Position numbers and translations under genes: made by a program
Assembly: GCF_001592875.1 (NCBI RefSeq)
Contig: NZ_LSOF01000018.1
Span: 1-64,000, forward strand
From: Pseudomonas sp. BMS12
GTDB taxonomy: Bacteria > Pseudomonadota > Gammaproteobacteria > Pseudomonadales > Pseudomonadaceae
DNA length: 64,000 bases
Reading direction: 5' to 3'
Shown here: one piece after another, positions 497 through 24,907 of the stretch
Layout of the letters: each line of letters begins with the position of its first letter
Numbering within the stretch: the stretch's first letter is position 1
The notes under the pieces: generated by a model
The model's input: the letters and a program-made list of their open reading frames with translations, nothing else
Told to the model about the DNA's origin: nothing
The model's database searches: none

Positions 497-2683
497 TCAC
501 AGCCTTTGGGTTAGGTATTGCACAATCTCTCGGCGTTCGTGGCCTACAGCTACCCATAGCGCATCATAGGTCTGCAAAGGACTATTGCTGGGCATAAGGG
601 GCAGTGCTGCGTCACCACCATGGCTTAGCAGGAGTTTAAACAGAGCTAGATCCCCAATTTCTGCGGCGAATAATGTTGGGGTCCACTCGGCTAGATGCTC
701 CGGTTGAACTCGGTAGCGACGATTGGGGTTGGCACCGTGCTTGAGTAGGACTTCGATGACTTGACGTCTGTCTTCCAAGGGGCGTGAGTAGTATTCCTTA
801 GTGGCTTGGAATAGGTCTCGGTAACGGGGGTTCTGCATCATGCTGAGCATGGAAAGACGGCGACTGGGTAGATCAACGTCCACTGCGACACCTTCTTTGG
901 CGTCATACGCATCACTGCGAGTTGTGCCGTTGAAATAAAGTTCTTGCTCGATAGCGAATGCAATTTCTGGCCGTTTGCTGTGGTGGAATAGTGCCATTGC
1001 ATAGCACAGCGCTGAGGCCTGGTATCCGCAGGAGTTTTCAGTTTGGGCACCTAGTTGTAGTAGTTGTTCGACGGTGGCCGCGTCAGCCATTTCTATGGCC
1101 CATTTCATCGGAGTTTCTTTTTTTGTGGAGGCGTGGCGGTTTACCGTTTCGACGGTCAGTCCCGCGCCGAGCAAGTGATACATGATGGCGGGATCTTTCT
1201 GGTCGCAAGCTCGGCGCATGGCATAACTGATCGGCCCTTCACCTGACTCCGGAATATAGTCGTTTGGGTCTCCGCCGTGTTCCAAGAGAGTCTGTACGTC
1301 AACCAGTGAGCCCATCATGACAGCCTGCATAAGCGGTGTTCGTCGTGTGCGCCCATCGGCGTATTTAACTTTTCGGTTTGGAGCCTCAAGAGCTTCGCTT
1401 GTGACGCGAAAGGGGCCGTCCAGAACCGCCATTTCCAGGACTGGCGGCACGCGATCATGTGCTTTTAATGGTTGGAAGCGATGCTCAAAGGCCAAGGCGA
1501 GGCTTCGGCGTTGTTGCTCATCAAATGGGCGTTTTGGCCAGTGGTTGATGCCTAGTAAAAAAGTCTTGTCCCAGAGGTGTTTTGCGACACGCTGCTCGCC
1601 AGCACCTACAGCGAAAAGCAGTGCCTCTGTGAGCAGTGCCTTCTGATTGGCCCCTTTTCGCCACCAGGCCTGTTCGACTGCTCGCAGGTATAGAGTCACG
1701 GCTTCACTGTGTGGTCGAGTGAAAGCGGCTAACCGCGCATCCAGCCAGTCATGCTGGTATTGGAGCTGTACTTGCTCTTGTTCTGTGCTTTGCCGGATCA
1801 GCTGTTGCAGCTGTTGAAGGTTTAGTCGAATGGTTTCCGCATGCGCTGTTGTTGACGCAAATAACTCTTCGGTTTCAATGATGAGCGGTATGGCCTTTTT
1901 ACGAATACCGTGAAAAGACCACTGCGCTTCGCGTTGAGCAAAGCGGTTGATGACATCATCAAGCGATGAGGGGGAATGCGGGGGCGACTGGTTGACGGCT
2001 ACTCGCAAAGCGATAGGGATGTTTTGCAGGCCAATCGCCACGATCAGCCAGCCTGTACTTAGCTCGATTTGCCGTTCGGACATAGCACCATCTGCACACG
2101 TCTCTACTTTCTTTCGGAACGGCCAGAAGCTTTTTTTGATTGGATTGCCTTGTAGCCAGCGTTGCAAGCTACGCATTTCAACGCTGAGGCAGGGCTCTAG
2201 ACGTTCTAGTAGGGTTGCTTGCTCAATCGCCAACTGTGCAGAAAACCATTCAACCCAAGTATGGAAGGGGCGCACGCACAGGTCATTTAGAGGTGGTCCC
2301 GGCATCTGACGTTGAGCCGACTGAAGAAGGCCCCTGAACAACGGCAGTTGAATCGTCTCCCGGTAAAGGTCTTGGCCTTCCTCATCAGCCCAAGACATTT
2401 CATCAATGTTCTGCACAAGGATTTGTATCGTTGTGCGGGTGTGACGCCAAGCAGCGTCCAACCACTGATGCCAAGAGGGGCCACACTCTGCGTGCACGGC
2501 TTTAAGTAACTGCTGCTCAATCTCGGCGATCAACTCTGCGGTGGATTCAGGGCGGGCCTCGATAGCCGCATCGTCTAGGCCTTTATCCATGCCGCGCTCG
2601 TTTAAGAGCGGACGCAGGCCTGCATCGGTAAAAACGTGGCGAAGCAATTCTCCGAGTTTGGGCAGAGGACTTCTGGAAAACAT
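497..2683 (-). CDS. Large ankyrin-repeat protein
   Basis: A 728-residue protein with no signal peptide. The N-terminal half (about 1-400) is helix-rich and unrecognised. The C-terminal part (about 420-728) carries ankyrin-like units, for example 'TPLMQAVMMGSLVDVQTLL', 'EVLLKHGANPN' and 'FKLLLSHGGD', so it probably mediates protein-protein contacts in the cytoplasm. AGGGA lies about 6 bp before the ATG. It follows the small SMP-family gene on the same strand after about 50 bp containing a hairpin. Large proteins with C-terminal ankyrins occur in defence and toxin loci, but no catalytic motif is visible, so no activity is claimed. Base use is plainer than in the core genes, consistent with acquisition. 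Confidence 0.7.
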   Translation of the reverse strand: MFSRSPLPKLGELLRHVFTDAGLRPLLNERGMDKGLDDAAIEARPESTAELIAEIEQQLLKAVHAECGPSWHQWLDAAWRHTRTTIQILVQNIDEMSWADEEGQDLYRETIQLPLFRGLLQSAQRQMPGPPLNDLCVRPFHTWVEWFSAQLAIEQATLLERLEPCLSVEMRSLQRWLQGNPIKKSFWPFRKKVETCADGAMSERQIELSTGWLIVAIGLQNIPIALRVAVNQSPPHSPSSLDDVINRFAQREAQWSFHGIRKKAIPLIIETEELFASTTAHAETIRLNLQQLQQLIRQSTEQEQVQLQYQHDWLDARLAAFTRPHSEAVTLYLRAVEQAWWRKGANQKALLTEALLFAVGAGEQRVAKHLWDKTFLLGINHWPKRPFDEQQRRSLALAFEHRFQPLKAHDRVPPVLEMAVLDGPFRVTSEALEAPNRKVKYADGRTRRTPLMQAVMMGSLVDVQTLLEHGGDPNDYIPESGEGPISYAMRRACDQKDPAIMYHLLGAGLTVETVNRHASTKKETPMKWAIEMADAATVEQLLQLGAQTENSCGYQASALCYAMALFHHSKRPEIAFAIEQELYFNGTTRSDAYDAKEGVAVDVDLPSRRLSMLSMMQNPRYRDLFQATKEYYSRPLEDRRQVIEVLLKHGANPNRRYRVQPEHLAEWTPTLFAAEIGDLALFKLLLSHGGDAALPLMPSNSPLQTYDALWVAVGHERREIVQYLTQRL

Positions 2684-2703
2684 TGGGTGTCCCTAGTGAA
2701 GAG

Positions 2704-2721
2704 GCGGGGCAGAAGCCCCGC
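2704..2721. terminator. GC-rich hairpin between SMP-like gene and ankyrin gene
   Basis: Stem GCGGGGC/GCCCCGC with an AGAA loop. On the plus strand it is followed by GTTTTCC, so it could terminate plus-strand transcripts. On the minus strand the T-run is absent, and it may only attenuate read-through from the small gene into the ankyrin gene. Confidence 0.45.
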
Positions 2722-2732
2722 GTTTTCCTTAA

Positions 2733-2888
2733 TCAGCGTTTGTTCTTTTCAGCCGCACGAGTCGCCCGTGCTGTGAAACTGTCTTTGGATACCTGGCCGC
2801 CATTACCCTTTGCCTCGCTGGAATGGATTCGGGCCGCTGCTTCGCTAGTCATTGGGGTGGGCGAGGTTGTCTTAGATTGCTGGGTCAT
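2733..2888 (-). CDS. Small SMP (seed maturation protein / LEA-like) family protein
   Basis: This 51-codon frame has a strong ribosome binding site (AGGAGAG, 5-6 bp before the ATG at 2888). The product starts MTQQSKTTSPTPMTSEAAAR and continues IHSSEAKGNGGQVSKDSFTA, ending RAAEKNKR. The pattern 'MTSEAAARI.S.EAK.NGG.V.K.SF.ARA.RAA.KN' matches the short bacterial SMP-domain proteins related to plant LEA proteins (family knowledge). Such proteins are hydrophilic and disordered; a desiccation or stress role is only inferred. It lies directly upstream of the ankyrin gene on the same strand, so the two may be co-expressed. Confidence 0.65.
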   Translation of the reverse strand: MTQQSKTTSPTPMTSEAAARIHSSEAKGNGGQVSKDSFTARATRAAEKNKR

Positions 2889-3162
2889 GATTGCTCTCCT
2901 GATTATGTGCCATGAGCGGCACTAAGGAGATCATCCCGTCCAGCTCCACGTAGCGCACGACAGGCTACCGAGAACATTTACGAATTTTCGGGATGATAGG
3001 TTTTAGGCGGCTGGCGGTTCGAGCTTGCTTGCTAAAGCGAGTCAGTATGATGGCATCATGGTGGCAACTTTACCGTCTGAGATACTGACTCAGGGGGCAA
3101 GTTTTCTTCATATGTCCCTTCATCATTGTCGCCGCACATCACGGCGCTAAGGATCAGCCCCA
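2889..3162. promoter_or_regulatory. Divergent intergenic region with a widely spaced inverted repeat
   Basis: It separates the minus-strand SMP-like gene from the plus-strand nuclease gene. A perfect 9-bp inverted repeat, ATCATCCCG (2930-2938) and CGGGATGAT (2989-2997), is separated by 50 bp and could allow looping or a long hairpin. No clear -35/-10 pair was assigned. Confidence 0.35.
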
Positions 3163-4188
3163 ATGCTTTATGAGTTGACTGTGCCGGCCCTAGTGGACAG
3201 TCGTCGAGTCCCTATCGAGCGCCCGGATGCCTTGGGGATTAGCGAAAAGCACATTGAGGAGTTCTTGGCTTCTCACCTTGTTGAGTTGATTCCCGAAGAA
3301 CAGCTCATGCTGCTGGCTCAAGAGCGGCAGTTTCAGGAAGAGGCCGATATTTTGGCGCTCGACCGGAAAGGAACCCTGTACATCTTCGAGTTGAAACGGT
3401 GGCAATCGAGTGCGGAGAACCTGCTCCAGGTCATGCGCTATGGCCAGAAATTTGGTCGTTACACCTACGCTCAGCTGGAGACGATGGTGCAGAGACAGCA
3501 ACGCTTGCAGGGTGCCTTGAGTGCTCGGCACCAAGAGTACTTTGGGCTTGAAGCGCCGCTGAAGGAGCAGGAGTTCAATCAAGATCAGCGCTTCGTTGTG
3601 GTAACCAATGGTGTGGATCGTGACACCTTGGAGGCCATTCAGTACTGGTCGAAAAAAGGCGTCCACATCGACAGCCTGACCTACAAGCTTTACCGGGTGG
3701 GAGGTAAGCCGTTCATTCAGTTCGATACCTACAACCCCGAACTGGATCTGTTGATGGAGGCTAACCCCGGCATCTTCATCGTCAACACCAACCGTACCTA
3801 CATGGACGATGCCTGGCGCGACATGCTCGGTGATGGCAAGAAAGGAAAAGCGGCGGCTTACTATGACCGCAAGAACGCGGTGCGGAAGATCGGAAAGGGA
3901 TCGACCGTGTTCCTGTATCACACAGGAGTTGGGGTCATTGCCAAGGGCAAGGCAACTGGTGGTGTACAGGCCACCGACTACGAGGGGGATGTGGACGAGC
4001 AGTTCTTTGTCCCGCTCCAGTTTGAGTGGTCGCTGCCGGATCCGGAAAGCTGGTCGTCACGGGCACCCAAGGCCTACGAAATCAATGCATCGACCGGGGC
4101 TAGCAACCGTTTTCGCCAGACAGTGTTCAACGCCTCGGAAGAAATGCGGGATGCGATCCAGGGCGTGTGGGTTGCACGCAAAGGCTGA
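3163..4188 (+). CDS. NucS/DUF91-like PD-(D/E)XK nuclease with C-terminal PUA/EVE-like region
   Basis: 341 residues. Residues 59-78 hold 'EEADILALDRKGTLYIFELK', giving the PD-(D/E)XK core D62...E76-x-K78 found in NucS/EndoMS and DUF91 nucleases. The C-terminal part (about 195-330) includes 'GKGSTVFLYHTGVGVIAKGKA', which resembles the PUA/EVE-type folds that read modified bases or RNA. Predicted role: cytoplasmic DNA cleavage, perhaps of modified or mismatched DNA; archaeal and actinobacterial NucS acts on mismatches, but this protein has a different domain partner. The ATG at 3163 has an AAGGAT sequence about 8 bp upstream. The MBL-fold gene follows on the same strand after 144 bp. Confident about the nuclease fold, not the substrate. 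Confidence 0.7.
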   Translation: MLYELTVPALVDSRRVPIERPDALGISEKHIEEFLASHLVELIPEEQLMLLAQERQFQEEADILALDRKGTLYIFELKRWQSSAENLLQVMRYGQKFGRYTYAQLETMVQRQQRLQGALSARHQEYFGLEAPLKEQEFNQDQRFVVVTNGVDRDTLEAIQYWSKKGVHIDSLTYKLYRVGGKPFIQFDTYNPELDLLMEANPGIFIVNTNRTYMDDAWRDMLGDGKKGKAAAYYDRKNAVRKIGKGSTVFLYHTGVGVIAKGKATGGVQATDYEGDVDEQFFVPLQFEWSLPDPESWSSRAPKAYEINASTGASNRFRQTVFNASEEMRDAIQGVWVARKG

Positions 4189-4332
4189 TTCCTCACTCGA
4201 CATGCCCTTTCGTTCGAACGGGCCTGCCTGAGGACGCTGACTTGAGGTGAACTGGTCGAGTTGTGCTCTCCGAGTAGGTATGTAGTAGGCAGCGACAGAT
4301 TTATGGTTATTCGACGTAAGGAAGAACTACGC

Positions 4333-5526
4333 ATGGACGTCACCATGATTCAGCACCCCGTCGGACAAGGCGGGATGTTCAGCGGTCAGCTTCAGGAGGG
4401 AAACTCAGTCCTGCGCTGGGTCTATGACTGCGGCTCCAACCAGCAAGATCGCCTCAACGAAGAGATTCTTTCCGTCGCGGCCCAAGGGATGATTGACCTG
4501 CTGTTTCTGTCTCACTTGGACAGTGACCATGTCAACGGCGTTGACCGCCTGCTCGCGGCGACCAGTGTGGCCGAGGTGGTTCTGCCCTATCTGAGCGCAG
4601 CTGAGTTTGCGCTTGCTGTGGTTCAGGATGTGGTAACCGGTGCGCTCTCTGGCACCTTTCTGGAGTTCGTGGCCGACCCGGCGAAATGGCTGATTGGCCG
4701 TGGCGTTAGTACCGTGAGTTTTATTCGAACTACCGGCGAAGACCAACCGTTGGGTGAGTGGCGGATTCCGGAACCAAAGCGCGAGGACGACACTCGCCGC
4801 CTCAAGGTGCGATGGCCGGCAGCGGCGGTAACGAAGCGAGCGGTGAAAACAGCGACCGTGCAGGATATTGCGGCGGGCGCAGTGGCCAGCATTTCAACAA
4901 ATGGTGCAAAGGTGGACTGGCTGCTTGTTCCCTATGCGCACAAGCCTTCCAAGCAGCAAATGAAAGACTTCAATAGGGCGTTGGAGTGCTGCTTTGGAAA
5001 GGGGTTGACCCGTTCAGCTATTGTGCGCCATGCCCGTGACGAGAACGGGCGTGTGAAGCTGAAAGAGTGCTATCACCAGTTGTGGAGCGACCATAATAAG
5101 GTCTCCATGTCGCTCTATGCTGGGCCGCAAACATCCCCTCACATCACCAGCCTGCAACTGCCGTTCAGCCAGTGGCGAAGGGGAGCGTCGGCAGCACCTC
5201 GTGCAGAGGTCGGTTGGCTAATGACGGGCGACGCCGACCTTGCATCATGTCGTAGGCTGGACGCTCTGTTGAGCTATTACCGTCCGGTGCGAGATCGTGT
5301 GAGCGTGCTGGTGTTGCCGCATCACGGCTCAGCGTTGAGCTTCCATTGGGATCTGGTCCCTAGCTTCTCGAATGTAAGCGCCTGCATCGTGGCGGCTGGG
5401 CGCAACCAGTACGGGCATCCACACTCTTGGGTATATGAGTGCGTGACGAGTTTTCTGGGGTCTCAGGGATGGCATCAGGTCAGTGAATGCCCCACTAGCG
5501 GTTTTGGTGTGCGCGCCGTGCTATGA
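4333..5526 (+). CDS. MBL-fold (metallo-beta-lactamase superfamily) hydrolase
   Basis: 397 residues from the ATG at 4333, chosen over earlier in-frame starts because AAGGAAG lies 8-14 bp before it. The metal ligands are intact: H61-x-D63-x-D65-H66 in 'SHLDSDHVNG', an aspartate near residue 300 in 'MTGDAD', and H330-H331 in 'LVLPHHGSAL'. The closing 'PHHGS' and missing signal peptide resemble cytoplasmic ComEC/Rec2-type MBL domains, which act on nucleic acids or phosphodiesters. MBL-fold genes of this kind recur in bacterial defence islands, sometimes near ubiquitin-like conjugation cassettes; here that cassette starts about 3.5 kb downstream. Partner of the adjacent NucS-like nuclease is an inference from position. 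Confidence 0.75.
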   Translation: MDVTMIQHPVGQGGMFSGQLQEGNSVLRWVYDCGSNQQDRLNEEILSVAAQGMIDLLFLSHLDSDHVNGVDRLLAATSVAEVVLPYLSAAEFALAVVQDVVTGALSGTFLEFVADPAKWLIGRGVSTVSFIRTTGEDQPLGEWRIPEPKREDDTRRLKVRWPAAAVTKRAVKTATVQDIAAGAVASISTNGAKVDWLLVPYAHKPSKQQMKDFNRALECCFGKGLTRSAIVRHARDENGRVKLKECYHQLWSDHNKVSMSLYAGPQTSPHITSLQLPFSQWRRGASAAPRAEVGWLMTGDADLASCRRLDALLSYYRPVRDRVSVLVLPHHGSALSFHWDLVPSFSNVSACIVAAGRNQYGHPHSWVYECVTSFLGSQGWHQVSECPTSGFGVRAVL

Positions 5527-8022: not shown

Positions 8023-8871
8023 TCATGGGGCAAACGACCAAGCAGGAACACCGGCCGCGAGAAGCTCGTGTTTGTTCTCCAGATAAAGGTGTTGGGCCTT
8101 TGGGTTGCCGGTCGCTGAGTCCGTGACATCTATATTCCACTGCCGGAGGAAGTAGCCGACGAGGCATGCCTTTAGCTCAACATATTTGGCCTCGCCGGTG
8201 ATGTCGTAATCAAGGCGAATGCTGTCCAGATGCTCGGCTGCCGGATGCGGAACAAGCCGCAAGCGAACGTCAGTTGTCCAATGGGGGTCGTTGTCGAGCT
8301 TGGCTTCTGACGGCTCGCCAGGGTGGGCGGATGTGAATCGCGCGAGGTTGAAATCCCGAAAGTCTTCTTTGGCATGGTCGAAGCAGCGGATATGCCAGCG
8401 CAATCCGTCATGCACCATCGCCAGTGGGGACAGTACGCGCTCTCGGTGTCCACTGCTCATCGAGCCATATTCGACCGTCATCTGCCGGCCTAGGTAGATG
8501 CAACGCGTAATCGTGCTCACCAGGGATAACGGAATCTTCCTTTTGATGCTGGAGCTGATCCAGCCAGGTAGACGCTTGGCATGCTCAGAGTCCATGGCGA
8601 TTGCTCGCTCACCGACGAGTGAGAACAGCGCCTGATTAACGTCATGCTGGAAGTGGGGCTTACCTTCGGACAGGACGTAACACTTTTGCCTCAGGTCATA
8701 ACGCAGTACATCGGGAGCCAATTCTGAGTACAGGGACAGATCTTTCGTGGCCGCAGGTTCACTGATTCCGAAGCGGGACACTAGATCTTTTCGACTGACC
8801 TGGCCGGTGAACAAGGCGAGGAACTCAATGTAGAACAGTCGTTCGCGCTGGATGTCTCGTTGCTGATCCAT
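8023..8871 (-). CDS. WYL-domain transcriptional regulator (BrxR/CapW-like)
   Basis: 282 residues from the ATG at 8871 ('MDQQRDIQRERLFYIEFLAL'); an upstream extension of the frame lacks a start with a binding site. Residues about 10-65 form a winged helix ('RKDLVSRFGISEPAATKDLSLY'). The middle and C-terminal parts match a WYL module ('RWHIRCFDHAKEDFRDFNLARF'). Proteins of this build (BrxR, CapW) repress BREX, CBASS and other defence operons and probably sense nucleic-acid ligands (published family knowledge). The gene is divergent from the conjugation cassette and DISARM operon, with tandem 17-bp repeats between them, so it likely controls that operon. Confidence 0.85.
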   Translation of the reverse strand: MDQQRDIQRERLFYIEFLALFTGQVSRKDLVSRFGISEPAATKDLSLYSELAPDVLRYDLRQKCYVLSEGKPHFQHDVNQALFSLVGERAIAMDSEHAKRLPGWISSSIKRKIPLSLVSTITRCIYLGRQMTVEYGSMSSGHRERVLSPLAMVHDGLRWHIRCFDHAKEDFRDFNLARFTSAHPGEPSEAKLDNDPHWTTDVRLRLVPHPAAEHLDSIRLDYDITGEAKYVELKACLVGYFLRQWNIDVTDSATGNPKAQHLYLENKHELLAAGVPAWSFAP

Positions 8872-8931
8872 GTGTTGGCTTAGCTTGGCTTGAGTAGAGT
8901 ATTTCAGTCTAGCAGGTGGGCATAAAAAAAG

Positions 8932-8966
8932 TGACAGGATAAAAAGTATGACGTGATAAAAAGTAT
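8932..8966. promoter_or_regulatory. Tandem 17-bp repeats TGACNNGATAAAAAGTA, probable WYL operator
   Basis: Two head-to-tail units, TGACAGGATAAAAAGTA (8932-8948) and TGACGTGATAAAAAGTA (8949-8965), differ at two positions. A degenerate A-rich unit precedes them (about 8915-8931). They lie 61 bp from the regulator start and 122 bp from the peptide start. The period is 17 bp rather than the inverted symmetry reported for BrxR and CapW sites, so binding is an inference. Confidence 0.6.
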
Positions 8967-9087
8967 TTGCGTTGTTTTGATCTGGGCGTATAGTCATGGC
9001 TGTGGTGCCTGGTTTGGACAAGTGTTGGTCTCGTCTAGGTGCCCCCCCCAATCCTTGGTTTCACCTTCGCTGTATAGGAGTATTTCG

Positions 9088-9255
9088 ATGAGCCAGCGTG
9101 ACAAGCCCGAACACCCGCACAAACCCGATCATCCCGGCCGGCCAGAACATCCCGGTCACCCCGATCATCCTGATGTACCGCCAGGGCCGCCGATTGATCG
9201 CCCCAATCCTGGGAACGGTGCGCCCAAGCCTCCGAGCCACAGGCCGGTGGGCTGA
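9088..9255 (+). CDS. 55-residue His/Pro-rich peptide ending in Val-Gly
   Basis: The ATG at 9088 has a clear TAGGAG 7 bp upstream (9075-9080), and the stop lies one base before the E2-E1 start, so the two are almost certainly co-translated. The peptide starts MSQRDKPEHPHKPDHPGRPE, repeats 'HPxHP/DHP' units and ends 'PSHRPVG'. It has 7 histidines and is about one-third proline, with no hydrophobic core, so it is not a beta-grasp ubiquitin fold. It takes the gene position where such cassettes usually encode their modifier. Possible roles, all inferred: a disordered conjugated tag (its terminal glycine fits adenylation by an E1), a metal-binding helper, or a regulatory leader peptide. No known family recognised. 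Confidence 0.65.
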   Translation: MSQRDKPEHPHKPDHPGRPEHPGHPDHPDVPPGPPIDRPNPGNGAPKPPSHRPVG

Positions 9256-9256
9256 C

Positions 9257-11008
9257 ATGAGCGGCTGGTGGAATCGCTACCCGCTTGAGTTCGAGGCCGA
9301 GAAATCGGCTCTCGACGCGCTGGGGTGTTCGTGGCGAATCGATGAGGGCGAGTGGCAGTCGGGGCGTTTAGCCATCGACATCGAGTTGCTGCATGGGGAG
9401 CAGCGGTTTCGCTTAACGGCGGAGTATCCGGATAGCTATCCGTATTTCCCGCCTCAAGTGACTCTGCACGAGCATGTGTTGCAACGGCATCAGCATCCGG
9501 TTGGTAGGAACTTGTGTCTGTTGGCCAGGGAGGGCGAGGACTGGCGACCGGGTCAGGACACGCTCGCGTGCCTTTTGGCGCAACAGTTCCCTGTGGTTTT
9601 GGCGGTCAATGCTGCCGAACTCTCATCTGACTTCGTAGCCGAGCACGAGGATCATGTTGGGGAGCCGTTTTCATCGTTTGTACCAACTGACCCCAATTGC
9701 ATGATCGTGGTGCCTGACGAAACACCAGGTGTCGAGATTGCTGGTGGGCGTTTGGTGCTTGATGTACGGGCTACTGCTCCAGCGGCGCATGACCGATTGC
9801 TCGTCAGTGGAATGATCAAGGCCATTCATGACCTGCGTGGCAATCCACTCATTGAGGTGGCTACTTGTGTTCCCGCGTTTTCCCAATCTATGACTGGGTT
9901 TTGGCTGCGTTTGCCGGAGCGTCCCAGCGTGGAATGTTCCAGTCAGGAAGTGGAGTTGGCGCAGCACTTCCTCAACCTCATGAAGTCTTCGCTCCCCGAA
10001 TTTGAGAAAGCACTACATGCGGCCAAACCAGGCCAAACTCTCATCGCTGGTTTCGTTTATCGGGATGAGGTGGTGTGGCGAGAGAGTGCTGACGATTGGT
10101 TATTCCTCGCGGTTCGGGTTCGGCGCGAAGCCAAGCGCACAAGACCTGCGCAAGTACAGTTAGCCCTCGTTCGGGCAGATTGGGGTGGTGAGAATGCTTG
10201 GATGCGACGGGCTCCGGCTTTGCTTCCTCTTCGCGGCAAGTCGGTCATGGTTGTCGGTTTAGGTAGCCTAGGCTCGCCACTTGTACTGCACTTGGCGCGT
10301 GCCGGTGTGGCGCAGATGGAGCTGATCGACTGCGATTGGTTGCAGGTCGGTAACACCGTGCGCTGGGCTCTCGGCTGGCAGTACGCCGGACTACATAAGG
10401 CGCATGCCCTGGATCTTCATTTAAAACATGAATATCCCTATACATCGGTAAAGCCGCATCACCTACATATTGGGTCGACCGTCTCCCATGGCGATATGAC
10501 GGACTATCAGCGCCTGCGCTCTATAAGCGAGGGCTGCGATCTGATCATCGATGCGACAGCCAATCACCGGGTTAGCCATTTTCTTGCGGATCTGGCCCGA
10601 GAGCTGGGCAAACCTTATCTGTGGCTCACCACGACTCATGGTGCCGCTGGAGGTGTTGTTGGGCGTGTCATTCCAGGAAGGACGGCGGGGTGTTGGCATT
10701 GCTTTCAGCATCGTCTGGCGGATGGTTCTATCCCCTTGCCCGCTGACTCCGGGGGGAAAGCAATTCAGCCGGGAGGGTGCTCCCAGGCGACATTCGTCGG
10801 TGCTGGCCTAGATAGCGATGAGGTCGCTTTACTGGCTTCCAGATTGGCGGTGGCGACCTTGGTCTCGGGAGCAGAAGGGGGCTATTCCGATTTCAATTGG
10901 AATGTGGCAGTCGCGGATTTCTGGCGGGACGGATTTTCCATCGCTCCGGAATGGGCGACCGATCAACTCCACTCTCATCCCAGCTGTGCGCACTGTAATT
11001 CCGTATGA
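9257..11008 (+). CDS. E2-E1 fusion of a bacterial ubiquitin-like conjugation cassette
   Basis: 583 residues from the ATG at 9257. The N-terminal E2-like (UBC) domain (about 1-125) has 'YPYFPPQVTL' and 'HQHPVGRNLCLL', with C87 as candidate catalytic cysteine and H80 before it. A linker of unknown fold (about 150-310) follows. The C-terminal E1/ThiF-type adenylation domain (about 320-583) has the 'GLGSLGS' nucleotide loop at 334-340, D360, R369 and K381, 'IIDATANH' around 430-437, and candidate catalytic C508 in 'QPGGCSQ'. C479/C482 and C577/C580 form two CxxC pairs, likely a zinc site. E2-E1 fusions of this type are known from type II CBASS (Cap2). Its stop overlaps the JAB start (ATGA). Confidence 0.85.
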   Translation: MSGWWNRYPLEFEAEKSALDALGCSWRIDEGEWQSGRLAIDIELLHGEQRFRLTAEYPDSYPYFPPQVTLHEHVLQRHQHPVGRNLCLLAREGEDWRPGQDTLACLLAQQFPVVLAVNAAELSSDFVAEHEDHVGEPFSSFVPTDPNCMIVVPDETPGVEIAGGRLVLDVRATAPAAHDRLLVSGMIKAIHDLRGNPLIEVATCVPAFSQSMTGFWLRLPERPSVECSSQEVELAQHFLNLMKSSLPEFEKALHAAKPGQTLIAGFVYRDEVVWRESADDWLFLAVRVRREAKRTRPAQVQLALVRADWGGENAWMRRAPALLPLRGKSVMVVGLGSLGSPLVLHLARAGVAQMELIDCDWLQVGNTVRWALGWQYAGLHKAHALDLHLKHEYPYTSVKPHHLHIGSTVSHGDMTDYQRLRSISEGCDLIIDATANHRVSHFLADLARELGKPYLWLTTTHGAAGGVVGRVIPGRTAGCWHCFQHRLADGSIPLPADSGGKAIQPGGCSQATFVGAGLDSDEVALLASRLAVATLVSGAEGGYSDFNWNVAVADFWRDGFSIAPEWATDQLHSHPSCAHCNSV

Positions 11009-11520
11009 CTGTTCTATGGATTGAGGCGCAGGCGCTCTGCGAGTTAAACGCCGAAGCCTGTCGCGCCTTCCCTCAAGAAACAGGCGGAGTGTTGGTGGGG
11101 TATGTCGCTGATGGTCAGCAGCCGGTTGTAATTACTGTGATTGGTCCAGGTCCGGCTGCGGTTCATCAGCGAGACAGGTTTCAGCCTGATCATCAATGGC
11201 AATGCGAACAGCTTGACGATCTATACGAGCGCTCATCGGGGCGGTTGGTCTATTTAGGTGATTGGCATACGCATCCTGATGGTTCACCGCAGATGAGCTG
11301 GCTGGATAGAAGAACAATCCGAGCCATCGCGAGGCATTCTCCTGCTCGATGTGCTCAGCCCCTTATGCTAATCGGCGGTGGTTCGTCTGAGTACTGGTTG
11401 TGGCGGGGGCATCGATACCGGTCTGCGCGATTGCTGGGAGTCCTGATCGATTGCGAGGTGTTGGAGGTGCATCAGTTTCGGGCAATGGACTCTCAGTTAA
11501 TGCCTGGCCAAATGGGCTGA
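11005..11520 (+). CDS. JAB/JAMM-family metallo-isopeptidase (deconjugating enzyme)
   Basis: 171 residues; the start overlaps the E2-E1 stop by 4 bp, indicating translational coupling. The JAMM motif is complete: E25 in 'PQETGGVLVG', then H88-T-H90-P with S98 and D101 in 'HTHPDGSPQMSWLD'. Such enzymes (Cap3, BilC and relatives) remove or process ubiquitin-like conjugates at a zinc centre in the cytoplasm. Because all catalytic ligands are present, the cassette should be able both to conjugate and to reverse conjugation. A 180-bp gap with a small hairpin (GGCGG/CCGCC, 11546-11561) separates it from drmD on the same strand. Confidence 0.85.
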   Translation: MTVLWIEAQALCELNAEACRAFPQETGGVLVGYVADGQQPVVITVIGPGPAAVHQRDRFQPDHQWQCEQLDDLYERSSGRLVYLGDWHTHPDGSPQMSWLDRRTIRAIARHSPARCAQPLMLIGGGSSEYWLWRGHRYRSARLLGVLIDCEVLEVHQFRAMDSQLMPGQMG

Positions 11521-11700
11521 GGTATTGTGGCCCCCATCACGCCAAGGCGGGAATGTCCGCCCCAGAGCCTCTGAGAAGAATGCTAAAGCCGTGTGACTGA
11601 CTTGCACCGCTCTCCTGCCATTGTTTATGGCGAGTAAGCACAATCGAAAACGCGAATCTCCAGCCCAATTGATAAAGCTCGAGATATAGAGGTAATAAGC

Positions 11701-14700
11701 ATGACCGCACTTGCCGAAGGCATCGGCTATCGCCAGCTTCCCGAACCAGGCCAGTTGGTGGAGGTTCGCCGCAGGCAATGGGTCGTGGCAGAAGTGAATG
11801 GATCCAATCTTGGGGAGCGTCGTCAGCATCTGATCACGCTCAACTCGATTGACGAGGATGCCTTGGGTGAAGAACTCCAGGTGATCTGGGAGATTGAGCC
11901 TGGTGCACACGTTATCGAGCGTGCGGGTCTCCCTGCTCTCACTGGTCAAGATGATGCCGAAACCCTGGACGCTTTTCTAGACGCGGTGCGCTGGGGGGCT
12001 GCCACCAATGCGGATCGTGGTTTCCTTCAGGCCCCTTTCCGTAGCGGCGTGAGTATTCAAGGTTTCCAGCTTGATCCACTCGTCCGCGCGATCGATATGG
12101 CGCGAGTGAATCTTCTGATCGCCGACGATGTGGGTCTTGGTAAAACAATCGAAGCTGGCCTGGTGATTCAAGAAATGCTCCTGCGGCATCGGGCTCGCTC
12201 GGTGCTCATCGTTTGTCCGGCGTCTCTTCAGGAAAAATGGCGTATCGAGATGTTGGAGAAATTCGGTCTCGAATTCCGCATCGTAGATAGTGGGTACATC
12301 AAGCAGCTGCGTCGTGAGCGTGGCATCCATGCCAACCCATGGAACTCTTTCCCACGGCTGATCACCTCCATGGATTGGGTCAAGACGGGCGAGGGCCTGC
12401 GCTCTTTCCGTGACATCCTGCCGTCGCATGTCACCTATCCGCGCAAGTTTGATCTGCTAGTGGTGGATGAGGCACATCACGTCGCACCCTCCGCTACGGG
12501 TGAGTACGCGGTGGAGAGTCAACGTACACGCCTCGTTCGCGCAATCGCTCCGCATTTCCAGCATCATTTGTTCCTGACCGCTACGCCGCATAACGGCTAC
12601 ACCGAATCCTTCACTTCTCTGCTGGAGCTTTTAGATGATCAGCGTTTCGCTCGAAACATCCTGCCAGAGGAAAAACAGCTTGCGCAGGTGATGGTCCGTC
12701 GTCTGAAGAGCGAGATCACTGATGAGAAAGGTCAGCGTATCTACGCTACGCGCAGGCTTGAAGTCTTACCTATTGATTACATACCGGTCGAGCGCGAGAT
12801 ACATCGCAAGCTCATGGCCTACTGTGCCAGTCGCGAGAAAGCTATAGATGAGTCTGGCGTCACTGGCGCATCCTTCGTTAACCAGTTACTCAAGAAACGC
12901 TTGTTCTCCTCGCCGGCTGCATTCGCCAGCACGCTCGAAAAACACCTGGCGACTTTGGCGAACGACGGTGTCGAAAAATCGAGCGTCGATCTGTCCGATC
13001 GAATTTTGCTCAAGGCGATTCAGCGCGCCGAAGAGGATTACGCTAAGGACGAAGACGTAGAGGACGCTCAACTGGAAGCCGTCGAAGTTGCTTCGCGGCG
13101 TTCTCGACCGTTGTCCGGAGAGGAGCAGCTGTTGCTGGGCGAGTTGCGATCATGGGCTCAACAGGCAATGAACCGTCTCGACTCCAAAGCGCACGCGTTG
13201 CTCGCCTGGATTGACGCGTACCTCAAGATCGATGGTGGATGGAATGGCAAACGTGTCATTTTCTTCACCGAATACCGCACCACGTTGGATTGGCTGCAAC
13301 GCATTCTGGTCAACCACCTTGACGATCCTCAGCGCTTGTTGATCCTGCATGGTGGCAAGGACAGCGACGAGCGTGAGGACATCAAGGCTGCTTTCCAGGC
13401 CTCGCCGGACATCTCGCCGGTGCGCATCCTGCTCGCCACGGATGCAGCGTCTGAAGGTATTGACCTCCAGAATCACTGTAACTACCTCATCCATCTTGAG
13501 ATCCCTTACAACCCCAATGTGATGGAGCAACGCAACGGTCGTATCGATCGTCATGGTCAGCGCGAGAAAGAGGTGGTGATCTGGCATCCGGCGGATGCGC
13601 GAGAAGATGCCGACTCGGTAGGTGGCCACAAGGAAGACATTCTGCGTGCCCTGAACAAGTTGGAATCCATGCGCGCCGATATGGGCAGCGTCAACCCGGT
13701 GATTGCGCCACAAATGTCTGGGTTGATCGAGGGCGCGCGGCGAGAGCTGGATACGCGTGCTGCCGAAGCTAAGCTCTCACGCTCCCGACGTTACGTGCGT
13801 GCTGCGGACAACGTAGTCGAGCGCGTCGCCAAGCTTCATGAGCGGCTGCTGGAAACAAGGGATGACTATCGTCTATCACCCGAACATATTCTCAACGCGG
13901 TCGAAACGGGATTGGCGCTGGCGGAAAAAGCTCCGCTTAAGCTAATCGATTTTCCAGGAGCAAAACCTGGATCCGTATTCGAACTACCACCTCTCGGCGG
14001 GGCCTGGGAACGTTGCCGCGAAGGCCTGGCTCACCCCTATACCCGCAAGATTCGCCCAGTCACCTTCGATCACGAGGTCGCGGCAGGTCGAGACGATTTG
14101 GTGCTCATCCATCTCAACCACCGCTTAGTTCAGATGTGTCTGCGCTTGCTGCGGGCGCAGGTCTGGTCAAGTGGTGAGGGAAAACCACTCCATCGAGTGA
14201 CGATAAAAACACTGCCTGACGAGCAACTGGAATCGCCTGCTGTAGTGGTGGTTTCCCGCGTAGTGATTACCGGAGGCGATCATCACCGGTTGCACGAAGA
14301 GCTGACTGAAGCTGGAGGCTATCTGCGTGAGCAAGGTTTCAAGCGTGAGGAGACTCTGGGCCGTTTGAGAGGATGGTTGGATGCTGGGCGTCCAGTGAAA
14401 TTGATGGATGAAGATTTCGACCTACTCACTGGTTGGTTCCGGTCGTCGGAGGCATCCATTTGGCAAGCCATCGAGGCGCGCTCACGTACACGCTTGGAGT
14501 CCCTTGGGAAGACGCTTGACGGCCGTAAGGTCAAGGAGCAGGAGGACATCCTGGCGGTGCTTGCTGAGTTGGAACGAGCCATTCGTGGGGAGCTTGTTCG
14601 AGACGAACAACCAGAACAGTTGGCCTTGTTTAGCGAAGATGAGCGTTTGCAGGTGCGTCGTGATCATACTGCTTTGCACGCGCGACTGAAGCGCATTCCG

Positions 14701-14823
14701 GATGAGCGAACTCAGGAGTGCGCCGCCATCGAATCACGCTATGCCGATCCGCAAGATCATACCTTCCCCGTTTCCATCATTTTCATCGTGCCCGTATCGT
14801 TCGGCCAAGGAGGCCGTGCATGA
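11701..14823 (+). CDS. drmD: DISARM SNF2-family helicase DrmD
   Basis: 1,040 residues. Walker A 'ADDVGLGKT' lies at 141-149, DEAH at 256-259, 'LTATPHNGY' near 300, and helicase motif VI 'QRNGRIDRHGQ' near 605, so this is an SNF2-type superfamily 2 ATPase. Length, the architecture and the genes that follow identify it as DrmD, the signature gene of class 1 DISARM (Ofir et al. 2018). DISARM restricts incoming phage DNA while the host is protected by methylation. GAGGT precedes the ATG by 8 bp. The stop overlaps the drmMI start by 4 bp (ATGA). Confidence 0.9.
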   Translation: MTALAEGIGYRQLPEPGQLVEVRRRQWVVAEVNGSNLGERRQHLITLNSIDEDALGEELQVIWEIEPGAHVIERAGLPALTGQDDAETLDAFLDAVRWGAATNADRGFLQAPFRSGVSIQGFQLDPLVRAIDMARVNLLIADDVGLGKTIEAGLVIQEMLLRHRARSVLIVCPASLQEKWRIEMLEKFGLEFRIVDSGYIKQLRRERGIHANPWNSFPRLITSMDWVKTGEGLRSFRDILPSHVTYPRKFDLLVVDEAHHVAPSATGEYAVESQRTRLVRAIAPHFQHHLFLTATPHNGYTESFTSLLELLDDQRFARNILPEEKQLAQVMVRRLKSEITDEKGQRIYATRRLEVLPIDYIPVEREIHRKLMAYCASREKAIDESGVTGASFVNQLLKKRLFSSPAAFASTLEKHLATLANDGVEKSSVDLSDRILLKAIQRAEEDYAKDEDVEDAQLEAVEVASRRSRPLSGEEQLLLGELRSWAQQAMNRLDSKAHALLAWIDAYLKIDGGWNGKRVIFFTEYRTTLDWLQRILVNHLDDPQRLLILHGGKDSDEREDIKAAFQASPDISPVRILLATDAASEGIDLQNHCNYLIHLEIPYNPNVMEQRNGRIDRHGQREKEVVIWHPADAREDADSVGGHKEDILRALNKLESMRADMGSVNPVIAPQMSGLIEGARRELDTRAAEAKLSRSRRYVRAADNVVERVAKLHERLLETRDDYRLSPEHILNAVETGLALAEKAPLKLIDFPGAKPGSVFELPPLGGAWERCREGLAHPYTRKIRPVTFDHEVAAGRDDLVLIHLNHRLVQMCLRLLRAQVWSSGEGKPLHRVTIKTLPDEQLESPAVVVVSRVVITGGDHHRLHEELTEAGGYLREQGFKREETLGRLRGWLDAGRPVKLMDEDFDLLTGWFRSSEASIWQAIEARSRTRLESLGKTLDGRKVKEQEDILAVLAELERAIRGELVRDEQPEQLALFSEDERLQVRRDHTALHARLKRIPDERTQECAAIESRYADPQDHTFPVSIIFIVPVSFGQGGRA

Positions 14824-17800
14824 AAGCTATCGACATCCATGACGAGTGGCTTTCGCTGATCGAAGTTTCCGGCCCCTTCCTTGCTAAACCAGTTTTGAAT
14901 AAGGTTTTTTCCACGGGGCTGCCTGCTGCCGATCAGCGCATCCGCAAACATTTGCGCCAGGCTTATGACGAGTGGTGCGAGGCGCGCGATGGCGATGATC
15001 CGCGCTTCGAGGCTCTGCATAGCGCGTGGATTCGAGAGGTACTGGCTCGAGGTCTAGAGTTCGACGAATCGAACTCGGGAGACCTCCTCAAGCATGGGCA
15101 AAGTTTGCCAGCCAGCGTGGTCGTCGCCATACCCGAGCATGGGGTTATCCTCTCGCCTGACTATGCCTTGGTCGCTAGTGACGAAGCGCGGCTACTGATC
15201 AAGTCCTACCCTGCCGGTACGCTGCTTCAGGCGGCTATTGATGTGGATGGCTGGGCGGCGAGCCCGGCCGAGCGGATGGAACGGCTCTGCCGAACGTCCG
15301 GTTGCCGGCTGGGTCTAGTCACGGATGGTGAGCGCTGGATTCTGGTGGATGCTCCAGTGGGGGGCGTTGTCAGCTTCGCGAGCTGGTATGCACGCCATTG
15401 GGGGCCGGAGCCACTAGCTTTGCAAGCCTTCCTGGCCTTGCTGGGGGTGGCACGCTTCTTCGGCCCAGCGGGTGAGCGTTTACCCGCCTTGTTGGATGAA
15501 TCGCTCCAGCATCAGGAAGAAGTCACCGATGCCCTGGGCGAGCAGGTTCGGCGAGCGGTCGAAGTGCTGATCCAAGCGCTGGACAAGGAGGATCGGGAGC
15601 GGTCACGTACGCTCCTGCAAGGTATCGAACCCGCAGAACTTTACGAGGCTGGTTTGACCGTGATGATGCGCCTGGTCTTTCTGCTTTCTGCCGAGGAGCG
15701 TAGTTTGCTACTGATGGGCGTGGGGGCCTACGAGCGTAATTACGCCATCTCCACTTTGCGCATGGATCTGCGTAAGGAAACCGAGGAGGTGCAAGAGCAC
15801 CGTAACGATGCCTGGTCGCGCCTATTGGCGACTTTCCGGGCGGTGTATGGCGGCATTGAGCACGATTCTTTGCGTCTGCCTGCTTTGGGTGGTTCGTTGT
15901 TCGATCCGGATCGCTTCCCCTTTCTCGAAGGCCGAGTCAAAGGGTCGAATTGGCGTACGGATGCCGCCAGGCCATTGCCGATCGACAACCGTACTGTGTT
16001 GCTCCTGTTGGATGCTATTCAGCAATACGAAGGGCGCACATTGTCCTACCGCGCCCTAGACGTAGAACAGATAGGTTACGTCTACGAAGGTTTGCTTGAG
16101 CGTACCGTGTCGCGCACCAAGAGCGTGACCGTCGAATTGACTGGCGGCAAAGGTGCAAGGAAGACCCTCTATTCCCTGGACGAACTAGAAGCCCTACATC
16201 GTCAGGGTGTCGAGGTATTGGCCGATGCTCTAGCGGGGGCTGAGGCTACCAAGCGCAGTGTCTCGGCCATTCGCAACGATATGCATCGCACCGTCGGAGA
16301 TGATGACGCCAGTCTTCTGCTCACTGCATGCGATGGTGATGAGGTCCTACGTGATCGTGGCAAGCTCTTCCTTGCTCTGATGCGTCGAGATCCATGGGGC
16401 TATCCACTGATATACCCGCAAGGTGCCTTCATTGTCACTGTCGGAACCGATCGGCGAGAGACAGGTACCCACTACACACCTAAATCCCTTACCGAGCAGA
16501 TCGTCGAAACCACGTTGGAGCCAGTGGCCTATATCGGTCCGGCTGAAGGGCTACCGCGTGAGCAGTGGCACCTCAAGTCAGCTACCGAGTTGTTGGATTT
16601 GAAGGTCTGCGATCCAGCCATGGGATCGGGGGCGTTCCTCGTGCAGGTCTGCCGTTGGTTGGCCGAGCGTGTCCTTGAGGCTTGGGCCGTAGCGGAAAAG
16701 GCTGGCGGTTTCATCGCTGTCGAAGGCCAGGTGTTGGAGCGGCTGGATGGGCAGGAGGTTATGCCAGCCAACCCTGAAGAGCGCTTGGTGATCGCTAGAC
16801 GTCTGGTTGCCGAACGTTGTCTTTACGGTGTGGACTTGAATCCGCTCGCAGTGGAGCTGGCCAAGCTGTCCATCTGGTTGGTGACCTTGGCCGAAGGGCG
16901 ACCTTTTGGTTTCCTCGACCATAACCTCAAGTGTGGCGACAGCCTGTTGGGTGTGCATCGTCTGGAGCAGCTCACCGAGCTGAGCATGACTCCAGGCGGA
17001 AAAGGGCAACAGCGGCTCTTCGGCAAAAATATTGAGCAGGCTGTACATGAGGCAGTAGAGCTGCGTCAGCAACTGCGTGAGATACCGATTCGAGACATAC
17101 ATGATGTCGAGGCCATGGCTCGCCTTGACGCATGTGCGCGTGATCGACTCGAGGTGCCTGAGCGAATCGCCGATGCATTGATTGGGGATGTGTTCGCTGC
17201 GGGGGGAAATGGATCAGCCATAGAAACCAGTCTTAGGTCTCTCGCCATTCAAGCGGAGCAAGCTATCGATGGCAACCGTGACGCCATAACAGCCATCGTT
17301 GCACGGGCGAAGTTAACGTTAGCTGCCTATCTATCTACGAACCAGGCCCGCAGGCCTTTCCATTGGCCGTTGGAGTACCCAGAGGTGTTCGTACGGGAAC
17401 GCACAGGCTTCGATGCCATCGTCGGAAACCCTCCGTTTCTGGGTAATCGTCTTTGGAAGGGAGCGATGGGTGAAAAATTGCAATGGCAATGCCAGATGAT
17501 CCTTGGTGCGTCACCCGGAAAGATCGATTTGTGCATTGTCTTCCACCGTAGAGCGGTCGATCTGCTGCGGGGGGATGGCAGCTATGGCTTGCTCGCCACC
17601 AGCAATATCGCGGAGGGTAGTGCAGTCAGGGTCGGCTTAGGGGTCATCGTAGGGAGCGGAGACATCTTCTTCGCTAGGAAAGGCATGCCTTGGCCAGGAA
17701 CTGCGGCAGTGGTGGTGGCGGTCGTCTCCTTTTTTAAGGGGGTATGGCAAGGACTGTGCGATGCAGAGGGGCGCAGCTGCGAGCGCATTGGGGCACGCCT

Positions 17801-18896
17801 AGAACCTGAGGCAGATGATGTTTGGATACCCAGAGAGCTGCCCCTTCCGATCTTCAGTTTCGAAGGAGTGAACAATAGCAAGGGGCTAGCGTTCGTTATC
17901 ACTCGAGCTAGCCCTTGGTTTAGCCAGCTCAAGGAGGAGCCAAATAGCTTGTTGAAACCGTATGTCACCGGTGACGACATAACTAGTTCCGCGCTGCGTC
18001 GGACCGAGCGTTGGGCATTGGATATTGCTGACCGCAGTCTTGAAGAAATAGAGCAAAGTTGGCCAATTGCCCACCGATTTTTGACCGAAGTGGTTCAGCC
18101 TACTCGTACCCCTGAGGCGCTTAAGAGCTACAAAGGACTTTATGGACGCTGGTGGCAGTTCTGGAACCATCGAGCGGATCTCATGCGTCGGTTGCGCCAG
18201 CGAAAGCGTTTCATCGCGTTTGCGAAGGTCACAAAGTACCCATTTTGTATGTTGGCACCTGCTGATTGGATCTTTACCAACAAGGTTTTGCTAGTTGAGG
18301 CAGAAAGGGATGACCTTTTTTCTATTTGCCTAAGCTCGTTTTTCCGTAGTTGGCTTCATGCATTTTCAGTGCGTAGCCTAGGTGCCGATACCAATACACT
18401 TACACTGTCGATTCGAGAGTCTGTATCGACATTTTCTCTGCCGATTGCAGAGGTTTCGAAAGCTGGGGGCGATGCTGCAACGCGCTTTCAAAGTGCTGTC
18501 GCTATATGGAGCGCAGAGCATGAGTGCGGGCTTACGGATGTGCTGAATGCCGTCAATACGCCAAGTTGTGCAGACCCGACAATCATTGAGTTGCGACAGC
18601 TTATGGCCGCTATCGATGCTGAGGTCGCCGTGGCCTACGGTTGGACTGATCTCGATCTCGCTTACGATTTTAGGGCTTTCGGAGGCGGATCGGCCAACGA
18701 TCCATGGCGTTGGGCGCTATCTGGCAGCGCGATCGCTGAACTTCTGAATAGGCTCACGGCTTTGAACCGTCGGCAGTTCGAGGCGCATTCCGCTGCCGAC
18801 GATAGCTCGTCTTCCCGAAATCTGGCGAAGCGTGGTCGTCCGAAATCTGATCCGCCGATGATCGTGAAGGGATTGTTTGATGGTCTAGCCGGATGA
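14820..18896 (+). CDS. drmMI: DISARM N6-adenine DNA methyltransferase DrmMI
   Basis: 1,358 residues from the ATG at 14820, which overlaps the drmD stop and follows AAGGAGG. It is a large single-chain methylase like type IIL/BREX PglX enzymes. SAM-binding motif 'CDPAMGSGAFL' starts at about 597 and catalytic 'NPPF' is at about 870-873. The N-terminal 500 residues are a helical/nuclease-like region and the C-terminal 450 residues probably hold target recognition ('FKSVT'-type motifs not resolved). In class 1 DISARM this methylase marks host DNA as self (published). The end ('RGRPKSDPP') looks complete. A 122-bp gap precedes drmA. Confidence 0.9.
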   Translation: MKAIDIHDEWLSLIEVSGPFLAKPVLNKVFSTGLPAADQRIRKHLRQAYDEWCEARDGDDPRFEALHSAWIREVLARGLEFDESNSGDLLKHGQSLPASVVVAIPEHGVILSPDYALVASDEARLLIKSYPAGTLLQAAIDVDGWAASPAERMERLCRTSGCRLGLVTDGERWILVDAPVGGVVSFASWYARHWGPEPLALQAFLALLGVARFFGPAGERLPALLDESLQHQEEVTDALGEQVRRAVEVLIQALDKEDRERSRTLLQGIEPAELYEAGLTVMMRLVFLLSAEERSLLLMGVGAYERNYAISTLRMDLRKETEEVQEHRNDAWSRLLATFRAVYGGIEHDSLRLPALGGSLFDPDRFPFLEGRVKGSNWRTDAARPLPIDNRTVLLLLDAIQQYEGRTLSYRALDVEQIGYVYEGLLERTVSRTKSVTVELTGGKGARKTLYSLDELEALHRQGVEVLADALAGAEATKRSVSAIRNDMHRTVGDDDASLLLTACDGDEVLRDRGKLFLALMRRDPWGYPLIYPQGAFIVTVGTDRRETGTHYTPKSLTEQIVETTLEPVAYIGPAEGLPREQWHLKSATELLDLKVCDPAMGSGAFLVQVCRWLAERVLEAWAVAEKAGGFIAVEGQVLERLDGQEVMPANPEERLVIARRLVAERCLYGVDLNPLAVELAKLSIWLVTLAEGRPFGFLDHNLKCGDSLLGVHRLEQLTELSMTPGGKGQQRLFGKNIEQAVHEAVELRQQLREIPIRDIHDVEAMARLDACARDRLEVPERIADALIGDVFAAGGNGSAIETSLRSLAIQAEQAIDGNRDAITAIVARAKLTLAAYLSTNQARRPFHWPLEYPEVFVRERTGFDAIVGNPPFLGNRLWKGAMGEKLQWQCQMILGASPGKIDLCIVFHRRAVDLLRGDGSYGLLATSNIAEGSAVRVGLGVIVGSGDIFFARKGMPWPGTAAVVVAVVSFFKGVWQGLCDAEGRSCERIGARLEPEADDVWIPRELPLPIFSFEGVNNSKGLAFVITRASPWFSQLKEEPNSLLKPYVTGDDITSSALRRTERWALDIADRSLEEIEQSWPIAHRFLTEVVQPTRTPEALKSYKGLYGRWWQFWNHRADLMRRLRQRKRFIAFAKVTKYPFCMLAPADWIFTNKVLLVEAERDDLFSICLSSFFRSWLHAFSVRSLGADTNTLTLSIRESVSTFSLPIAEVSKAGGDAATRFQSAVAIWSAEHECGLTDVLNAVNTPSCADPTIIELRQLMAAIDAEVAVAYGWTDLDLAYDFRAFGGGSANDPWRWALSGSAIAELLNRLTALNRRQFEAHSAADDSSSSRNLAKRGRPKSDPPMIVKGLFDGLAG

Positions 18897-19018
18897 CTTC
18901 GCCATCCTCTGATGGCCAAGGTCGGATATTTGGAAAGCTTAATATCAAGAGCGCGCATTTAAAGAGTTGGGCGTCATGATCAGCAATTGTTCGCTTACTG
19001 GGGTTTCAGGAGTCCTGC

Positions 19019-23047: not shown

Positions 23048-23049
23048 GT

Positions 23050-24906: not shown

Positions 24907-24907
24907 G

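Follow-up and report, generated by a model that had tools for sequence, protein, structure and literature searches.

The 64,000-nucleotide stretch analysed here (the window; positions 1 to 64,000 of contig NZ_LSOF01000018.1 from Pseudomonas sp. BMS12) contains at 9088-11520 a three-gene operon in which a short peptide open reading frame (ORF) is followed by an E2-E1 fusion gene and a JAMM/JAB peptidase gene. Comparison with related loci makes it likely, on sequence grounds, that this operon is a Cap2-like cassette for E1/E2/JAMM conjugation, with the disordered, proline-rich peptide itself as the substrate. The peptide gene (9088-9255, forward strand) encodes the proposed modifier and E1 substrate, a 55-residue protein rich in Pro, His and Gly that terminates in PSHRPVG; AGGAG is positioned 7 nt 5' of its ATG, and a single base separates its stop codon from the ATG of the E2-E1 gene at 9257. 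The E2-E1 gene (9257-11008, forward strand) encodes a Cap2-like protein of 583 residues with the E2 Cys87, a candidate E1 Cys508, a GxGxxG loop and a CxxC...CxxC arrangement. Its stop codon (11006-11008) overlaps, within an ATGA, the start codon (11005) of the JAMM/JAB metallopeptidase gene (11005-11520, forward strand; 171 residues), whose product carries E25, H88, H90, S98 and D101 and matches Prok-JAB at 3.5e-15. The original prediction, made from this DNA alone, had described a 55-codon gene with a good ribosome site one base before an E2-E1 fusion whose stop overlaps a complete JAMM gene, and all of these coordinates hold.

The E2-E1 protein was used as query to collect related cassettes, yielding nine loci in genome contigs, 15 places in 14 plasmid records, and an additional genome, G237. 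Counting was confined to the 24 loci with readable upstream DNA, the window included; L004 and L009 were excluded because their contigs end before the upstream region, and L006 was counted though only the last part of its peptide is present. Directly 5' of E2-E1, 23 of the 24 loci have a Pro-rich short ORF that ends in Val-Gly or runs on for no more than two residues after it; its distance to the start of E2-E1 is between -1 and +32 nt. The sole locus without the peptide, Calothrix L039, is a type II cyclic oligonucleotide-based antiphage signalling system (CBASS) in which a cyclase occupies the slot, and its match covered 37% of the query. The Cap2 protein of the host's own CBASS (L011/L041), which matches in the E1 part only, served as a control outside the 24; if it is counted as Calothrix was, also a CBASS locus with a partial match, the figure becomes 23 of 25. 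The upstream DNA of other partial ThiF-like matches fell outside the count. Near-copies are present among the 23 loci (four from Polaromonas; pairs or trios from Sinorhizobium and Sphingobium), and when these are grouped the peptide accompanies 15 distinct E2-E1 lineages, with identities down to 26%. The carriers belong to Pseudomonadota, Acidobacteriota (one metagenome-assembled genome), Bacteroidota (Hymenobacter) and Actinomycetota (Arthrobacter, Iamia).

Full-length peptides from these loci are 40-59 residues long, contain 30-46% Pro, and lack Cys and aromatic residues. Val-Gly is present in 23/23 peptides, and the Gly is the terminal residue in 21; in the other two it is followed by QQ (Hymenobacter) or R (G237), with a JAB gene beside both. 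The four residues ending at the conserved Gly are RPVG in 21/23, RQVG in Indioceanicola and KHVG in the second NGR234 copy. Conservation of the peptide 5' of E2-E1 and of its C-terminal glycine, both of which had been put forward as checks on the original prediction, is thus borne out, the one exception to the former being a CBASS locus. Plasmid pNGR234a holds two diverged copies of the cassette (L033, L017), whose peptides end in PKHVG and HRPVG. Of the 14 plasmid loci in the PLSDB gene table, which is incomplete, 13 lack an annotation for the peptide ORF, and this may explain why the peptide has been overlooked. Pro follows 6 of the 7 Lys/Arg residues of the window peptide; trypsin should largely spare such a sequence, and conjugates could escape standard proteomics.

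The possibility that the peptide is a chance ORF was rejected from two kinds of evidence. A pattern for the end of the gene (VG plus 0-4 residues, the last 30 codons including 7 or more for Pro), defined after the peptides had been seen, gave 25 matches at 23,057 stop codons in 47 sequences (818,076 bases, both strands summed). All 25 are peptide genes 5' of E2-E1, three of them in duplicate DNA (L010, L022, L032). Codon comparison indicated purifying selection: between the window and the Burkholderiales locus L002, the proportions of synonymous (pS) and nonsynonymous (pN) differences are 0.93 and 0.13, and the S. americanum and S. chiapasense peptides (L021 versus L034) give a dN/dS of 0.04. 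Within the last 18 codons synonymous sites vary in most distant pairs; hence a signal at the DNA level, for instance the ribosome site of the following gene, does not account for the Val-Gly end. A profile built from the peptides matches this gene alone in the host genome (1.1e-16; next match 0.66), and the window peptide has no match in Pfam, PADLOC or NCBIfam. The AlphaFold model of the peptide contains no DSSP secondary structure (predicted TM-score 0.18; mean predicted local distance difference test, pLDDT, 69), in agreement with its earlier description as a disordered-looking chain.

The two enzymes retain the catalytic residues expected for ubiquitin-like conjugation in the wide sense, as judged from 12 aligned E2-E1s and 11 aligned JABs. 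Pfam detects ThiF in the E2-E1 protein at 3.5e-18, with the E2 part below threshold (UQ_con 0.0027, Prok-E2_B 0.025), and PADLOC identifies E1-E2 (3.3e-49) and JAB (9.1e-27). Across the 12 E2-E1s, of which the other 11 are 26-60% identical to that of the window, Cys87, the GxGxxG loop, Asp360, Arg369, Lys381, Asp432, Cys508, Cys479, Cys482 and Cys577 are invariant and Cys580 is nearly so; the catalytic Cys of the E1 domain is probably Cys508. The E2-E1 of G237 is 28% identical to that of the window. The best PDB match of the E2-E1 profile is Cap2 (8.4e-24, positions 247-463), and the best full-length Foldseek matches of the E2-E1 AlphaFold model are Cap2-CdnD02 (E 2.3e-19) and Atg7-E2 complexes, though the TM-scores for the whole chain are low (about 0.34). 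The VIA list for the same model is dominated by the E1 part, with UBA5, MoeB and ThiF tied at the top. JAMM residues are invariant in 11/11 aligned JABs, and a JAMM motif scan was positive in 22 of 25 loci; Pfam finds a JAB in two of the misses (L016 and L040), the third being L036. In the Iamia locus (L016) the E2-E1 is split into two ORFs and the JAB is short. The -MG end of the window JAB is not conserved among the aligned JABs.

To what the peptide corresponds is suggested by the gene order of Cap2 loci. Cap2 joins CD-NTases, which are not β-grasp proteins, through a single terminal Gly or Ala, according to the accessible text of two reports (PMC10097602, PMC11153139). Seven Cap2 loci were used as controls, one from the host genome and six from plasmids, five of these having been picked from 71 records that match the Calothrix Cap2. 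A CD-NTase is encoded directly 5' of E2-E1 in 7/7 controls (recognised by PADLOC in two and as Pfam DncV-like in five) and ends in Gly (2), Ala (4) or Val (1); a Pro-rich Val-Gly ORF is absent from that slot in all seven. Because the slot is equal, the peptide occupies the place of the CD-NTase, as if the substrate had been reduced to its tail. Phylogenetic analysis of 22 E2-E1s places the 15 peptide-linked proteins (14 lineages plus a second Polaromonas sequence, with Iamia left out) and the seven Cap2 controls on opposite sides of a branch supported at 100/100. Owing to long branches, above all that of the host Cap2, and uneven composition, this tree fixes neither the root nor the precise relation to Cap2.

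Taken together, these results favour, on balance, the view that 40-59-residue Pro-rich peptides with an (R)-P-V-G end, each served by its own Cap2-like E2-E1, trimmed by a JAMM enzyme and present in at least four phyla, form a third class of E1 substrate beside β-grasp proteins and CD-NTases. In the mechanism that we propose, the E1 domain would adenylate the C-terminal Gly55 of the peptide and carry the peptide as a thioester on its own Cys, probably Cys508. From there the peptide would move to Cys87 in the fused E2, which would attach it through an isopeptide bond to a target-protein amine. Trimming of extended precursors and later removal of the tag would fall to the JAMM enzyme. The VG-QQ and VG-R ends, both beside JAB genes, suit precursor processing of this kind and speak against a leader peptide that acts by stalling at the stop codon. 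Conservation of the peptide and of its C-terminal Gly supports the earlier suggestion that the peptide is an unconventional modifier or target, its role as modifier being putative.

Several observations weigh against conjugation of the peptide or against a role in defence. Some codon pairs are uninformative, being near-copies, or saturated (several dS values); over the last 18 codons, L005 versus L008 gives a pS of 0.07 and a pN of 0.05, and G237 versus L017 a pN of 0.32. The peptide model was built on 6 sequences, and its pLDDT of 69 is middling, not low. The E2-E1 model is of moderate quality (pLDDT 70), with TM-scores to full-length Cap2 of about 0.35 at a root-mean-square deviation (rmsd) of 17.5 Å, and the VIA list mostly tests residues 202-583, which leaves sequence as the main basis for the E2 fold. 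Sampling is thin because the cassette is rare, the Val-Gly end could serve binding instead of conjugation, and neither a target nor an effector is known for the cassette. Several plasmid copies adjoin metal or metabolic genes, as against the defence island of the window, and Bub operons, which have regulators of the kinds found here (see below), are noted in the literature as not having been shown to protect against phage (PMC13373217).

The lack of a known target would also fit a peptide that is never conjugated, acting instead as a regulator or cofactor: with its C-terminal tail in the adenylation pocket of E1, it would gate the E2-E1 for a substrate encoded elsewhere. Pro-rich peptides are typical binding partners, and conservation of the tail would be expected of such a ligand too. 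However, the peptide is located where the CD-NTase substrate is encoded in 7/7 Cap2 controls, 2/23 peptides have precursor-like extensions, and no other candidate partner gene shared by the loci stood out in the annotated gene lists and ORF tables that were inspected. We consider this explanation unlikely.

Less probable still is a leader peptide at which ribosome stalling, in the Pro-rich stretch or at the end, controls translation of E2-E1. The Pro-rich codons and the very short gap before E2-E1 (-1 to +32 nt), with translational coupling the likely consequence, would suit a leader, but the position of Val-Gly relative to the stop shifts in 2/23 peptides, most pairs combine high synonymous with low amino-acid change, and there is hardly any space for an attenuator past the stop. 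Such a leader would also leave unexplained the position of the ORF in the slot that holds a CD-NTase in Cap2 loci. We regard as very improbable a pathway of the kind that makes ribosomally synthesized and post-translationally modified peptides, in which the E1 domain would modify the peptide C-terminus, as MccB does for microcin C, to give a small-molecule product. MccB acts on a short peptide and resembles the E1 domain closely in structure (Z 21.9), yet the fused E2 with its invariant Cys87 and the JAMM gene would have no role, and no exporter or tailoring gene common to the loci was noticed in the inspected listings. The metal-binding partner offered by the original prediction, specified here as a Zn or Ni chelator or a metal-delivery factor for the JAMM enzyme, is suggested by the HP/DHP repeats of the window peptide (13% His) and by the metal-resistance genes close to several plasmid copies, but it is weakened to the point of being barely credible, and metal binding as a conserved role was rejected, since His is not conserved (2-16% of full-length peptides; 2% in Iamia, Indioceanicola and S. 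americanum) and Cys is absent, whereas Pro and the Val-Gly end are kept.

Conjugation of the peptide by a Cap2-like cassette was compared with the known systems that it resembles. Type II CBASS shares the E2-E1 fusion, the separate JAB, the order substrate/E2-E1/JAB, and a non-β-grasp substrate with a single small C-terminal residue. In contrast, the cassette has neither a CD-NTase nor a cyclic-nucleotide effector among the neighbours scanned, its slot holds a disordered peptide of 40-59 residues, and its E2-E1s form their own group. Simple CBASS was rejected because the operon lacks a CD-NTase. The host genome carries in addition a complete type II CBASS (G000:C43 ~204990-209710; L041:1990-6710) consisting of a SAVED-HNH effector, a CD-NTase ending in RLG, Cap2 and a JAB.

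Bub systems use a β-grasp ubiquitin-like protein (Ubl) and separate E1 and E2 genes. Bil systems do likewise in the accessible text of their description (PMC11354881). Both share with the cassette an E1, an E2 and a JAMM peptidase, and regulators of the kinds found here have been reported for Bub (PMC13373217, accessible parts). The cassette differs in having one fused E2-E1 ORF that is preceded only by the peptide, with no β-grasp gene found. The prediction that no CD-NTase and no β-grasp protein is encoded nearby agrees with the scan of neighbouring genes, which covered part of the window ORFs and revealed neither. A search of the host genome for a β-grasp gene elsewhere that might serve the cassette found none, a weak test: its two ThiS-family proteins are taken as the cell's own ThiS and MoaD, and a Multi_ubiq search gave no match in the host and was equally silent in control genomes.

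In pupylation, Pup and UBact provide the precedent of covalent tagging with a small disordered protein. The enzyme that attaches Pup is a carboxylate-amine ligase with no relation to E1, and a PafA-type ligase gene adjoins the tag gene; the partner enzyme of the cassette is of the ThiF/E1 type. Mature UFM1, a folded β-grasp protein of eukaryotes, also ends in Val-Gly, and its activating enzyme UBA5 (6h78, Z 23.8, rmsd 3.4, 246 aligned) is among the structures closest to the E1 domain, tied with MoeB and ThiF. The 6A-MBL system (an E2-E1-JAB triple fusion beside a metallo-β-lactamase, MBL; row 6a of Iyer 2006) is approached by matches of the E2-E1 and JAB sequences to NCBIfam NF058523 at 80.2 and 79.8 bits and by a weak, 24.1-bit match of the MBL-fold gene at 4261-5526 to the 6A-MBL enzyme model. 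It differs in that these scores fall far short of the respective cut-offs (320 and 220 bits), the JAB is separate, and the MBL-fold gene is not adjacent. Each of CBASS, Bil, Bub, 6A-MBL and pupylation thus fails a defining feature, some of these features being general knowledge of the systems, and the cassette is set apart from all five.

The enzymes themselves were probably counted before. In the accessible parts of Iyer, Burroughs and Aravind 2006 (PMC1779556), operon rows 6b/6c list NGR234 and, in 6b, the actinobacterium 'Asp.', and plasmid pNGR234a and Arthrobacter FB24 both carry the peptide cassette. The partner given for these rows is a CD-NTase or a Cys/His metal-binding protein, and those parts of the paper do not mention a Pro-rich peptide (PMC1779556). 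No description of the peptide was found in titles and abstracts of the open-access literature; subscription papers on Bub, Bil and Cap2 might mention it.

The cassette is rare. One further carrier (G237) was found among 397 other Pseudomonadota genomes (E 1e-40), and none among 384 other genomes of the class of G237, some of them common to the 397, at the same threshold; both surveys scored at most three candidates per genome. The relatives searched gave E1-part matches only, apart from the window, and there was no match in viral contigs (searched with a profile and with a DNA pattern for the peptide end) or in phages.

The surroundings of the operon suggest its regulation and possible role. 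A gene for a WYL-domain transcription regulator (8023-8871, reverse strand; Pfam WYL 3.6e-11) is divergent from the cassette, with its start set at the conserved MDQQRDIQ in preference to a longer TTG ORF. The WYL-peptide intergenic region contains two direct repeats of GATAAAAAGTAT at 8938 and 8955 (8938-8966), 17 bp apart, and their 11-mer core occurs only twice in the whole window; one guess is that they are an operator of the WYL protein. ATAAAAA repeats resembling GATAAAAAGTAT are readable in the intergenic region of L002. WYL proteins 66-67% identical are encoded in the same divergent position in L001 and L002, and L003 has a helix-turn-helix gene plus an M78 peptidase gene. A divergent RES-Xre toxin-antitoxin pair is present just 5' of the peptide in L017, L019, L020 and L038 (Sinorhizobium, Sphingobium).

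Directly downstream of the cassette, at 11701-25672, is a complete class 1 DISARM (defence island system associated with restriction-modification) operon (DrmD, DrmMI, DrmA, DrmB, DrmC). The top PADLOC label of its first gene is DrmA; the gene is read as DrmD because it encodes an SNF2-type helicase with matches to many DrmD models. Genes for Vsr (25681-26112) and a C5 DNA methylase (26063-27109, reverse strand) come next, and there is no CBASS effector among the neighbours scanned. On the other side, the island genes within 497-5526 include those for an ankyrin-repeat protein (reverse strand), a NucS-C-like relative of PDC-S11 (3163-4188) and the MBL-fold protein (4261-5526), which has weak ComEC, LmuA and 6A-MBL-enzyme matches and lies about 3.6 kb upstream of the cassette. 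DISARM as part of the cassette system was rejected, since L001 and L002 keep the cassette and the WYL gene with no match to DrmA, DrmB, DrmC or DrmD in the flanking ORFs scanned (3 and 4, respectively). Those of L001 include an IS66 transposase and a C5 methylase whose matches to DrmMII models rank below those to ordinary type II methyltransferases. Beside its cassette, at 8324-13716 on the opposite strand, L002 encodes a protein of the dGTPase family and, in a 1038-residue ORF, an RNase H plus SF1-type helicase related to MkoA/MkoC.

CapW (WYL) and CapH+CapP regulators have been reported at CBASS and Bub operons (PMC13373217, accessible parts). This precedent, together with the DISARM neighbour, the WYL gene kept in L001 and L002, the helix-turn-helix and M78 genes of L003 and the defence-type neighbours of L002, makes the cassette look like an inducible anti-phage module, here under the divergent WYL gene, and by analogy a defence role is probable. 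It is not certain, given the Bub operons and the plasmid copies beside metal and metabolic genes described above.

If the peptide is indeed the substrate of its Cap2-like E2-E1, E1/E2 chemistry would require a tail alone and no folded modifier. Such a system would bear on the origin of ubiquitin-like systems, and it would offer a compact protein-tagging tool whose peptide substrate is short enough for direct synthesis.

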